A stretch of 64,000 nucleotides of DNA from Aestuariibaculum sediminum (GTDB lineage: Bacteria; Bacteroidota; Bacteroidia; Flavobacteriales; Flavobacteriaceae), in assembly GCF_014596945.1 (NCBI RefSeq), contig NZ_JACVXB010000002.1, positions 554,172-618,171 on the forward strand, written 5' to 3'. The position numbers and the translations under genes are program-made. Shown here one piece after another: positions 43,889-46,775 of this stretch. How positions within the stretch are numbered: the stretch's first letter is position 1; every line of letters begins with the position of its first letter. A model generated the notes under the pieces. The model did no database searches. It saw nothing but the letters and a program-made list of their open reading frames with translations, and was not told where the DNA came from.

Positions 43889-44257
43889 TTATTTCATTCG
43901 GTAAGCTACACCTTTTTGCTTTTTAGTTTCACCTACATAGGAGTATTCGTAGGTATATGAACTATCTGTAGTAGTTAAAATTTTTAGATGAATATCTTTG
44001 CGTTCAGCCATATTCTTTGGATTTATGGTTCTAAACACAACTTCACAGTCATTAATCCATCTTAACGATGAGGAGTCTATTTTGCTATTATAAGTTTCTA
44101 TCTGTAATTTATCGGTGCGCTTAAATTTTGAAGTATATGTTTCACCATCAATTGTAACTTCGCTGTAAAATTCACCAGTTCTATAATCACTACAATTACG
44201 AGTTGTTTGAAAACAGCTAAACATACTCAAAAGTAAAAAGGCATAACAAAATTTCAT
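43889..44257 (-). CDS. Small lipoprotein of unknown function
   Basis: A 122-residue protein with a lipoprotein signal (LLLSMFSC, Cys15) and mostly beta strands after it (TGEFYSEVTIDGETYTSKF). Cysteines at 22 and about 70 may form a disulfide. From memory, such proteins are sometimes mislabelled DNA topoisomerase IV; nothing here supports that. It is convergent with the gene at 43379 and follows the XRE regulator in the same direction by 56 bases. Confidence 0.65.
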   Translation of the reverse strand: MKFCYAFLLLSMFSCFQTTRNCSDYRTGEFYSEVTIDGETYTSKFKRTDKLQIETYNSKIDSSSLRWINDCEVVFRTINPKNMAERKDIHLKILTTTDSSYTYEYSYVGETKKQKGVAYRMK

Positions 44258-44313
44258 GTGGACGAATTATAAGGCTTTAAAATTTAGACCAAAGGTACTA
44301 AACTATCCCAATT

Positions 44314-44733
44314 TTAATTATGATAATTTTTAAAAGTCCCATCAGAATAAAAAACAACGATACGCTCTATAGTTTTGTTATTTTCATTTTCTGAAAATAT
44401 TTTTTCTTCTGGAAGATTTTCAGGAGCCTTAGCTATCGCCTCTTTTTTTATCTTTTCAGATGACACTGGGGTAGGTTCCAATATTTTTTGCTCTTTAATT
44501 TCTTTTTTTGCAGGAAAACTGCCTTTACCATTTAGAAGCCAATATAATTCTACTTCAGGAAATGCCGACAGAATTTTTAATACAAATTCTAAACTCGGTT
44601 TATTACGCCCTGATAATATATGTGAAATGCTTGAGCGCTGTACACCTATTTTTTCAGCAAAAGAAGACGCCGATTCTCCATAAAAACGGATAACTCGCTC
44701 TAACCTTTGGGTAAATTCTTCTGTGTTTATCAT
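44314..44733 (-). CDS. XRE-family transcriptional regulator
   Basis: A 139-residue DNA-binding protein. Residues about 6-62 form a Cro/cI-type helix-turn-helix (SASSFAEKIGVQRSSISHIL, then SGRNKPSLEFVLKILSAFPE). The rest is charged, Lys/Glu-rich and probably flexible. The gap to the divergent M14 peptidase gene holds seven TACA-N2-TGTA dyads, two of which overlap TAnnTTTG boxes, so the regulator probably controls itself and the peptidase. The ligand or signal is unknown. Confidence 0.88.
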   Translation of the reverse strand: MINTEEFTQRLERVIRFYGESASSFAEKIGVQRSSISHILSGRNKPSLEFVLKILSAFPEVELYWLLNGKGSFPAKKEIKEQKILEPTPVSSEKIKKEAIAKAPENLPEEKIFSENENNKTIERIVVFYSDGTFKNYHN

Positions 44734-45067
44734 GTTAAACTTTACAATTGTATACTGAGTTACAAATGTAATAAATTATTTTAAAACGTATACATTTGTA
44801 TACTTCTTTATTAAAAAAAGTACAATTTTGTTTATATTAATACTTTAACTTAAATGACATATGTTGTTGATAATAAATATTTTACTTTCAGTTATTGTTG
44901 ATAGAACCTAGTGCTATTAATTCAGTTGATTAAACACCGTGAATCCAACGTAAACCGTGTTTACATATGTATACAATTTAATTTAACCCCTTGTTTACAG
45001 ATGTAAATTTGTTAATGTTGACAATTGTAAAATCCTAAATTCTTACATTTGCACACAAAATGTAAAC
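44734..45067. promoter_or_regulatory. Divergent control region with TACA-N2-TGTA operator array
   Basis: Dyads TACA-N2-TGTA occur at 44743, 44761, 44791, 44962 and 44996, and one-mismatch forms at 45020 and 45044. They cluster at the two ends, next to each start codon; the middle (44801-44949) has none. A further inverted repeat GTAAAC-CGT-GTTTAC lies at 44950-44964. The dyads at 44761 and 45044 contain the -7 boxes TACATTTG for the regulator (minus, 44770-44763) and the peptidase (plus, 45044-45051). The layout suggests repression of both divergent genes by the XRE protein. Confidence 0.7.
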
Positions 45068-46225
45068 ATGCAATTAGACACCATTAAACAACTCTATTCT
45101 ACCTATAAGGAAAGTGGGTTATTCAACCGTTATATTACTAACAACCATATTAAACCATTATTAGAGATCTTAAGCAACAAAATAAACATTGAAACGCTTG
45201 GTCAATCCGTTAAGGGCGAAAATATTTTTGCCTTTAAAATTGGAGATGGAGATAAACGGATTTTAATGTGGTCTCAAATGCATGGAAACGAATCTACAAC
45301 GACAAAAGCAATTTTTGATCTTACAAATACTTTATTATCCGATCAATCTAAAACAAAACACATCCTAGAAGCTTGTACCTTATATATTATTCCAATTTTA
45401 AACCCCGATGGGGCTGAAGCATATACCAGAATAAACGCTAATGAAGTTGACTTGAATAGAGATGCGCAAAATTTAACGCAACCCGAAAGCTTAGTTTTAA
45501 AATCTGCTTTCGAGAACTTTAAGCCTCATTTTTGTTACAATTTACATGGACAACGAACTATTTTCAGCGCTGGTAAGGCCAATAAATCAGCTGTTGTTTC
45601 ATTCTTATCTCCTGCACAAGACGAAGCATGCTCCTTAACACCTAATAGAAAAGTGGCAATGGAAATAATTTCAGTTATGAACGCTGCTTTGCAGCAAATA
45701 ATTCCTGATCAGGTAGGTGTTTATGATGATGCTTTTAATTTAAATTGCGTAGGAGATACGTTTCAAAGTAAAAACATCCCAACTATATTATTTGAGGCCG
45801 GGCATTTTCCAGGAGATTATGAACGCGAGAAAACGAGAGAACTGATTTATATGTCTTATCTAACGTCTCTAGACTATATTGCTAATAATGATATTACAGG
45901 AGAAAAGTATCAGTCATATTTAGAAATTCCAGAAAACGAAAAACTGTTTTTAGATGTTATTTTAAGGAATGTGAAAGTAGAAAATAGTGACGACGGGGAA
46001 GTTGTAGATATAGGGATTATGTTTCAGGAGCGATTAATTGATAAAAAAATAGTTTTTATTCCACGCATTGAAAAAATCGAAAATTTAAGTAATTTTTATG
46101 CTCATAAAACAATTCAAGCCAATGGGTTAAAGGTGTTGGGCGAAAATGGCAATGCATTAAAAGTAGGTGACGAAAACGATTTCGTTGTGGTGAATAATGA
46201 AAAAATACCAATAATTTCGAAATAA
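45068..46225 (+). CDS. M14-family zinc carboxypeptidase-like protein
   Basis: A 385-residue cytoplasmic-looking (no signal) M14 metallopeptidase. Zinc ligands His72 and Glu75 are in SQMHGNESTTTKA; NPDGAEAYTRINANEVDLNR carries the substrate-binding Arg/Asn and the third zinc ligand is the His of YNLHGQRT. LFEAGHFPGDYEREKTRE near 245 carries the likely catalytic Glu. The C-terminal 100 residues form an extra domain. It may act on peptidoglycan-type or amidated peptides; the substrate is unknown. It is probably controlled by the divergent XRE regulator. Confidence 0.88.
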   Translation: MQLDTIKQLYSTYKESGLFNRYITNNHIKPLLEILSNKINIETLGQSVKGENIFAFKIGDGDKRILMWSQMHGNESTTTKAIFDLTNTLLSDQSKTKHILEACTLYIIPILNPDGAEAYTRINANEVDLNRDAQNLTQPESLVLKSAFENFKPHFCYNLHGQRTIFSAGKANKSAVVSFLSPAQDEACSLTPNRKVAMEIISVMNAALQQIIPDQVGVYDDAFNLNCVGDTFQSKNIPTILFEAGHFPGDYEREKTRELIYMSYLTSLDYIANNDITGEKYQSYLEIPENEKLFLDVILRNVKVENSDDGEVVDIGIMFQERLIDKKIVFIPRIEKIENLSNFYAHKTIQANGLKVLGENGNALKVGDENDFVVVNNEKIPIISK

Positions 46226-46295: not shown

Positions 46296-46775
46296 ATGGG
46301 GAAAATTAAATTAGACGAAATAGATCATCAAATCCTTGATATGTTAATCGATAACACAAGGATTCCGTTTACAGACATTGCGAAAAAATTATTAATATCG
46401 GCAGGAACTGTTCACGTTAGAGTTAAAAAAATGGAAGAACATGGTATTATAAGAGGTTCTTCGTTAATGTTAGATTACAAAAAATTAGGTTACTCTTTTA
46501 TTGCATATGTAGGTGTGTTTTTAAATAAAACATCAGAAACTAAGTTTGTATTGGAGCGAATTAATGAAATACCTTATGTAACCGTAGCACACATTACTAC
46601 AGGAAAATTTAACGTATTTTGTAAAATTCGAGCAAGAAGTACCGAGCATGCTAAAGAGGTTATTTTCTTATTAGATGATATTGAAGGGGTTTACAGAACC
46701 GAGACAATGATTTCGTTAGAAGAAAGTATTAATGATAAAAAACGATTGATGCATACCATTTTTAATGAAATGTAA
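46296..46775 (+). CDS. Lrp/AsnC-family transcriptional regulator
   Basis: A 159-residue regulator. The N-terminal helix-turn-helix (LDEIDHQILDMLIDNTRIPF, then TDIAKKLLISAGTVHVRVKK) is followed by a RAM-type ligand-binding domain (about 65-150) with VAHITTGKFNVFCKIRARST. Such proteins sense amino acids and control their metabolism. It follows the M14 peptidase gene by 70 bases and ends before a bidirectional terminator. Confidence 0.92.
   Translation: MGKIKLDEIDHQILDMLIDNTRIPFTDIAKKLLISAGTVHVRVKKMEEHGIIRGSSLMLDYKKLGYSFIAYVGVFLNKTSETKFVLERINEIPYVTVAHITTGKFNVFCKIRARSTEHAKEVIFLLDDIEGVYRTETMISLEESINDKKRLMHTIFNEM

Follow-up and report, generated by a model that had tools for sequence, protein, structure and literature searches.

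The gap between an XRE-family regulator gene and a divergently oriented M14 peptidase gene most likely carries a real, old and conserved operator array, through which this uncharacterised regulator would repress itself by means of a DNA loop. This reading is based on sequence comparison of the window, which here means the whole 64-kb stretch of DNA analysed, with related genomes.

Dyad array and flanking genes

The start codons of the regulator gene (44733, minus strand) and the M14 gene (45068, plus strand) are separated by 334 bp, in which the dyad TACA-N2-TGTA (TACANNTGTA) occurs five times exactly and twice with one mismatch (Table 1). Exact dyads in 5000 dinucleotide-shuffled versions of the gap had a mean of 0.067 and a maximum of 3; those with at most one mismatch averaged 0.94 and attained seven once. 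The seven-dyad count of the sequence-only reading was borne out, as was its description of clustering near both start codons, with three dyads on the regulator side and four on the M14 side. The whole window contains eight exact dyads against 1.56 expected from shuffles, five of them inside the gap. With one mismatch allowed, 49 dyads against 39.8 expected are barely an enrichment, so that the signal consists in the clustering within the gap. From 204 half-counted copies we derived the dyad consensus (g)TTTACA-WW-TGTAAA(c), whose information content declines past 16 bp. Neighbouring dyads are most commonly spaced by 24 bp (25 pairs), followed by 34-35 bp (22) and 48 bp (13).

Table 1. Features of the regulator-M14 region (window positions; operators are predicted)
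Feature	Position	Strand	Remarks
Small lipoprotein-like gene	43889..44257	-	3' of regulator, kept there in many family relatives; no Pfam match
XRE-family regulator, 139 aa	44314..44733	-	HTH_3 (residues 23-66), linker, C-terminal two-strand hairpin (124-138)
Dyad, exact	44743..44752	.	Near regulator start; mainly this genus, some copies with one mismatch
Proximal operator A (predicted), exact	44761..44770	.	Minus strand reads TACATTTG, likely regulator -7 box
Dyad, exact	44791..44800	.	Proximal cluster member in this genus, GTATACA-TT-TGTATAC
Central IHF-like element, TATCAACAACATA	44860..44872	-	One mismatch to WATCARNNNNTTR as given in an excerpt of the source cited in the text; conserved in relatives
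Distal operator C (predicted), exact	44962..44971	.	
Distal operator D (predicted), exact, TTTACAGATGTAAA	44996..45005	.	235 bp from A, centre to centre
Distal operator (predicted), one mismatch	45020..45029	.	24 bp from D; extra unit of this genus
Distal operator E (predicted), one mismatch	45044..45053	.	24 bp beyond the 45020 dyad; plus strand reads TACATTTG, likely M14 -7 box
M14 zinc carboxypeptidase, 385 aa	45068..46225	+	Peptidase_M14 58.9 bits, cut-off 21.6
Lrp/AsnC-type regulator	46296..46775	+	3' of M14, also in several relatives; may be cotranscribed with M14 as the second gene

The regulator belongs to the XRE/HTH_3 family (37 bits for HTH_3 against a Pfam cut-off of 23). Residues R10, H38, R43, N44, S47, W65 and G69 are invariant in 46 aligned relatives, among which the C-terminal stretch IERIVxFYxDGxFKxY recurs. 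In the AlphaFold2 model, pLDDT values are about 87-94 for the HTH part, about 48-54 for the linker and 88 for the hairpin. Neither Pfam nor the model revealed a recognised ligand domain in addition to the DNA-binding domain, linker and short hairpin. Among small XRE regulators of solved structure, the closest HTH is that of SinR by sequence (E about 0.004) and that of C.AhdI by fold (E 0.0014, with no fold match at or below 0.001). Both matches are weak and confined to the HTH, and the conserved C-terminal hairpin motif of the regulator differs.

Membership of the peptidase in the M14 zinc carboxypeptidases is evident from its domain, the HxxE..H pattern and the catalytic glutamate. The HxxE residues (H72, E75), H160 and E243 are invariant across 33 aligned relatives; we take their metal-binding and catalytic roles to be those established for M14 enzymes. 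The AlphaFold2 model (pLDDT 94.5) matched solved M14 carboxypeptidases in Foldseek. By eye, no obvious signal peptide was seen, whereas two longer paralogues with confirmed M14 domains appear, also by eye, to carry one. The protein shares the M14 fold and intact metal and catalytic residues with the murein tripeptide amidase MpaA. Its NCBIfam MpaA score of 27, however, is far below the cut-off of 157, and MpaA (4axv) ranked 49 in the fold search. It could be a peptidoglycan or peptide enzyme. The Lrp/AsnC-type gene is strongly conserved, with 92% identity in the part of locus L061 that was seen.

Conservation of the array and its linkage to the regulator

Among 60 relatives, the regulator was found in 53 and the M14 gene in 47. 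Where both are present they are divergent neighbours in 40 of 44 genomes; in three of the other four they lie at contig ends, and in G055 they are apart. Of the 38 loci in which M14 is divergent, 36 have an exact dyad 5' of the regulator and 30 have at least two; the remaining two pair loci have one-mismatch dyads only. In total, 90 exact dyads were counted in these 38 loci against 1.33 expected from shuffles and 12 matches to the reversed pattern. This count leaves out L019, for which no start was called, and L022, which comes from the genome that also contains L075; L016 enters it as a two-base stub. Every one of 77 named Flavobacteriaceae-type loci has at least one exact dyad and a divergent M14 gene, with two or more dyads in 68 and 186 exact dyads against 28 reversed-pattern matches. 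These 77 are the usable ones of 80, L160 and L175 having no regulator open frame called and L218 being truncated. The reversed-pattern control ATGTNNACAT is thus above zero in both family sets, and inspection suggests that its matches come from the ATGTTTACAT flanks of the dyads themselves. Absence of the array from relatives with the same gene pair, which the sequence-only reading had named as a possible refutation, was therefore not what we found.

The array follows the regulator beyond the gene pair. At an E-value of at most 1e-15, the regulator was detected in 74 of 295 genomes of the class. At the class level, no M14 was seen in the fetched stretch of 61 loci, and 45 of these still have an exact dyad no more than 350 bp 5' of the regulator. 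The 45 comprise 19 of 21 nearer loci, with 51 exact dyads and 1 reversed-pattern match, and 26 of 40 more distant ones, with 43 and 0 (L284 was kept despite a misplaced start); 2 nearer and 14 distant loci have no exact dyad in that range. Conversely, no exact dyad was found 5' of 12 further HTH_3-type genes in the window's genome, compared with five for the regulator (starts chosen by script), upstream of nine M14 paralogues, or 5' of three M14 orthologues lacking an adjacent regulator (G049, G051, G055). The Flavobacteriaceae-type genome G026 (88% completeness) yielded no M14 match; its regulator is retained together with two exact dyads, and so is the Lrp gene. In genome G029 (L060, L027) a gene for a 184-aa lipoprotein-like protein separates the array from M14, and the array stays by the regulator. 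Family f25 has a RecF-like gene upstream in the same direction and no divergent gene. Its distal dyads persist at about -145 and -180, and the distal cluster is therefore not just an operator of the M14 promoter.

As in an autoregulated repressor, the dyads are linked to the regulator gene across relatives, and it is very probable that they serve the XRE regulator as operators. We propose that the array belongs to the regulator and that the distal cluster additionally serves the M14 promoter in Flavobacteriaceae and some other Flavobacteriales-type families. Judged by this distribution, M14 is a lineage-specific partner of the regulator. The regulator-peptidase pair is not the basic unit: outside Flavobacteriales-type genomes the regulator and its dyads adjoin other genes, and G026 is M14-less. 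Sensing of a peptide or cell-wall fragment, as put forward earlier, found no support: no ligand domain is recognised in the regulator, and the peptidase is not retained with it beyond some families.

Among regulator neighbours picked by eye rather than by census, nine of ten proteins tested contain M1-peptidase domains, and nine of ten further ones are a dihydroorotate dehydrogenase or PyrK-type subunit, the tenth being ZnuA. M1 aminopeptidase-type genes lie by the regulator in several families, with M14 not adjacent or M1 additional to it (L066, L069, L073, L258, L274, L276, L283, L284 and L286). PyrD or PyrK, from two different enzyme classes, follows the regulator in many distant relatives, namely L241, L246, L078, L080, L262, L266, L272 and L287, and a pyrimidine link of the regulator is possible. 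Other eye-picked neighbours are DtxR-type, HhH-GPD, DUF6580 and PRA-PH genes. In three loci of family f48 (L243, L246 and L249) the gene 5' of the array is of a metal type, coding for a DtxR-type regulator or a ZnuA-type lipoprotein. The recurrent themes are thus peptidases (M14, M1) and pyrimidine, neither of which names the signal.

The ten-base core raises the question of a different binder. The abstract of PMC7253601 gives TACANNTGTA as the core operator bound by CopR-CopY, BlaI and MecI, so that a PF03965 repressor of this type, not the XRE regulator, might occupy the array. The window's genome does contain one PF03965 gene, closely preceded by a pair of exact TACATTTGTA dyads with a spacing of 28 bp (L111, G000:C11:398500-401500, positions 1508 and 1536); these are likely to be that gene's own operators. 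It is the only PF03965 match of the genome and lies on another contig. The window regulator itself is an HTH_3 protein, and its TTTACA..TGTAAA flanks differ from the CopY flanks RNYKACANNTGTMRNY given in PMC7253601. Furthermore, 11 of 12 examined genomes that have the regulator and lack a PF03965 match keep an exact dyad upstream of the regulator; the twelfth, G044, has six one-mismatch dyads and no exact one. The dyads also track the regulator through many neighbourhoods, and a PF03965 binder is very unlikely.

Promoter boxes, helical spacing and central element

Excerpts of two papers give the flavobacterial -7 box as TAHHTTTG at -12 to -5 (PMC6847099, PMC9723704). In the gap this motif occurs at 44791-44798, 45004-45011 and 45044-45051 on the plus strand and at 44770-44763 on the minus strand. 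The 45044 copy is a plausible -7 box of M14 and the 44770-44763 copy of the regulator. Transcription is predicted to start at about 45056 for M14 (leader of about 12 nt) and at about 44758 for the regulator (leader of about 25 nt). This corrects the earlier statement on the -7 boxes; the copy at 44791 is in the wrong orientation for the regulator. Among 110 loci, TAHHTTTG can be read on the regulator strand of a proximal site in 91 and on the M14 strand of a distal site in 91. The position of dyads over both predicted -7 boxes suggests repression of both promoters, which fits the tight switch imagined from the sequence.

Since TACATTTG fits both box and dyad, and many proximal and distal dyads lie where a -7 box is expected, the motif could in principle be merely a conserved -7 box (TAnnTTTG) that is palindromic by chance. 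Operators C and D, however, lie away from any start, and the full dyad with its TTTACA/TGTAAA flanks is conserved on both arms. The exact ten-base dyad is retained at the proximal site in 79 of the 110 loci. In the same genomes it is missing at the promoters of other XRE-type genes and at M14 paralogues. A box without operator function is therefore extremely improbable. Activation of M14, or of the regulator itself, from distal dyads upstream of the -7 box, with repression only at high regulator level, would be in line with the several dyads upstream of the predicted M14 start (44962, 44996). As the most start-proximal dyads cover the -7 boxes, we regard it as quite unlikely.

The distance between the two clusters was determined with A defined as the proximal site 24-40 bp from the regulator start and D as the distal site followed by a partner some 24 bp on. 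In the 72 loci assigned out of 132, A-D distances were 202-204 bp (4 loci), 212-214 (21), 222-225 (35) and 233-236 (10). Hence 70 of 72 fall into four classes separated by steps of 10-11 bp, with outliers at 198 and 219, and in these loci the helical phase is kept between clusters about 20 helical turns apart, as a loop would require. When D was assigned by sequence alone (96 of 126 loci, 30 being skipped), the classes persisted with more scatter and an added class of 245-248. The loci are related to one another. On a quick M14 tree, in which 16 of 69 inner branches are open, at least 15 changes of distance class are required. The phase statistic on 15 reconstructed changes was 0.66 at 10.5 bp (p 0.0006 under a simple uniform null), and the test over periods of 9.5-11.5 gave p 0.0034 under the same type of null. 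The step analysis covers Flavobacteriaceae; outside this family, spacing is constant in f25 and irregular in f48. The case for a helical face kept between the clusters is good but not conclusive.

A conserved middle block was seen in an alignment of 27 gaps before any motif was named. It resembles the IHF consensus WATCARNNNNTTR, as given in an excerpt of PMC9820253. Taken by itself, the element of the window's genome is weak, the gap containing five one-mismatch matches to this consensus. Across relatives, a match with at most one mismatch near -131 on the regulator strand was found in 22 of 24 loci against 8.4 expected. The 77 named loci gave 63 such matches against 9.9 in shuffles and 19 exact ones against 0.5; as controls, the opposite strand gave 16 and flanking windows 12 and 9. 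In f25 the element lies at -119/-120 in six of six loci (0.9 expected; other strand 3/6), and in f48 it occurs without a fixed place in seven of nine (2.8 expected; other strand 5/9). Distances to the element also change in steps, being 87-90 or 98-99 bp from A to the element and 114-115, 124-125 or 134-136 bp from the element to D. Two HU/IHF-family genes are present in the window's genome. In many family members the WATCAR preferred by IHF is replaced by TTTCAG, and another HU-type protein is therefore possible.

These data bear on whether the clusters cooperate. Each dyad might act alone as a loop-free roadblock of the regulator on the two promoters, in line with the dyads on both predicted -7 boxes; moreover, the dominant spacings of 24 and 34/35 bp inside a cluster are not whole turns, and side-by-side binding needs none. 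Such independent action is at odds with the 10-11 bp steps kept between clusters, the fixed place of the central element and the persistence of the distal cluster without a divergent promoter. Taken together, we consider lone roadblocks unlikely.

Proposed mechanism and its meaning

The reading we prefer, and consider probable as a whole, is that the dyads are operators of the regulator, that both promoters are repressed, and that a DNA loop forms with a bend made by an IHF/HU-type protein. The predicted target of the regulator is TTTACAWWTGTAAA. One regulator dimer would bind per dyad, covering about 14-16 bp of (g)TTTACA-WW-TGTAAA(c). Dimers on the proximal and the M14-nearest distal dyads would cover both -7 boxes and exclude RNA polymerase, whereby the regulator would repress itself and the peptidase. 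As the clusters lie about 20 turns apart on a kept face with an IHF-like site between them, looping is most likely: dimers of both clusters would meet across DNA bent by the IHF/HU-type protein, and the loop would result in cooperative shut-off. A tetramer may form via the hairpin seen in the regulator model. The comparison itself shows the dyads, their conservation and link to the regulator, the overlap with predicted -7 boxes, the helical steps and the central element; that dimers bind, repress and loop the DNA with the help of a bending protein, under the control of an inducing signal, is our inference.

Loop-forming repressors are represented by few model systems. Like lambda CI on OR and OL, the regulator is an HTH protein with several dyads at two places and a proposed cooperative loop, and the 24-bp dyad spacing resembles the site spacing within lambda OR. 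In contrast to CI, it is a chromosomal regulator with no CI-like C-terminal domain detected and no phage genes noticed beside it, and its clusters, separated by an IHF-like site, are about 0.2 kb apart, while the OR-OL distance amounts to kilobases. The gal system of Escherichia coli (GalR and HU) is a short repression loop with a bending protein. It shares with the proposed array two operators flanking a putative bend site and a spacing that is probably phase-dependent; it differs in the protein family, in that the divergent layout here would serve two promoters, and in that the central element resembles the IHF consensus.

A search of the exact 14-mer TTTACANNTGTAAA gave six sites in the window's genome against two for the reversed pattern, and two in each of four same-genus genomes. 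The non-local sites that were fetched, exact 14-mers only, lie in varied genes or gaps; a regulon of more degenerate sites may exist. No recurrent second target was found among exact 14-mers beyond the near-identical G002 and G004, where the site is 5' of an ABC-transporter-like gene. An Rfam search of 44000-46000 found no RNA element in the gap and one sub-threshold chance match outside it. In the open-licence PMC literature we found no description of an XRE/M14/operator system, of an XRE regulator with pyrK, or of a flavobacterial looping repressor.

Tentatively, and with somewhat less than even confidence, we suggest an old autoregulatory switch of the class, in which the XRE repressor loops about 0.2 kb of DNA around an IHF/HU-type bend and the module is kept while neighbour genes (M14, M1, PyrD/PyrK, RecF-like) are swapped. 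If so, one loop would have been put to use for different genes in different lineages, and these settings would share a signal that is not a peptide. The array would offer a concrete case of looping, proposed from comparative sequence alone in an understudied group, with a site, an expected 16-bp operator, a helical phase and a putative bend site, as well as spacings that vary in nature by single helical turns. Occurrence of TACANNTGTA alone does not mean BlaI or CopY, and the binding site predicted for this regulator family may help in the annotation of many genomes.
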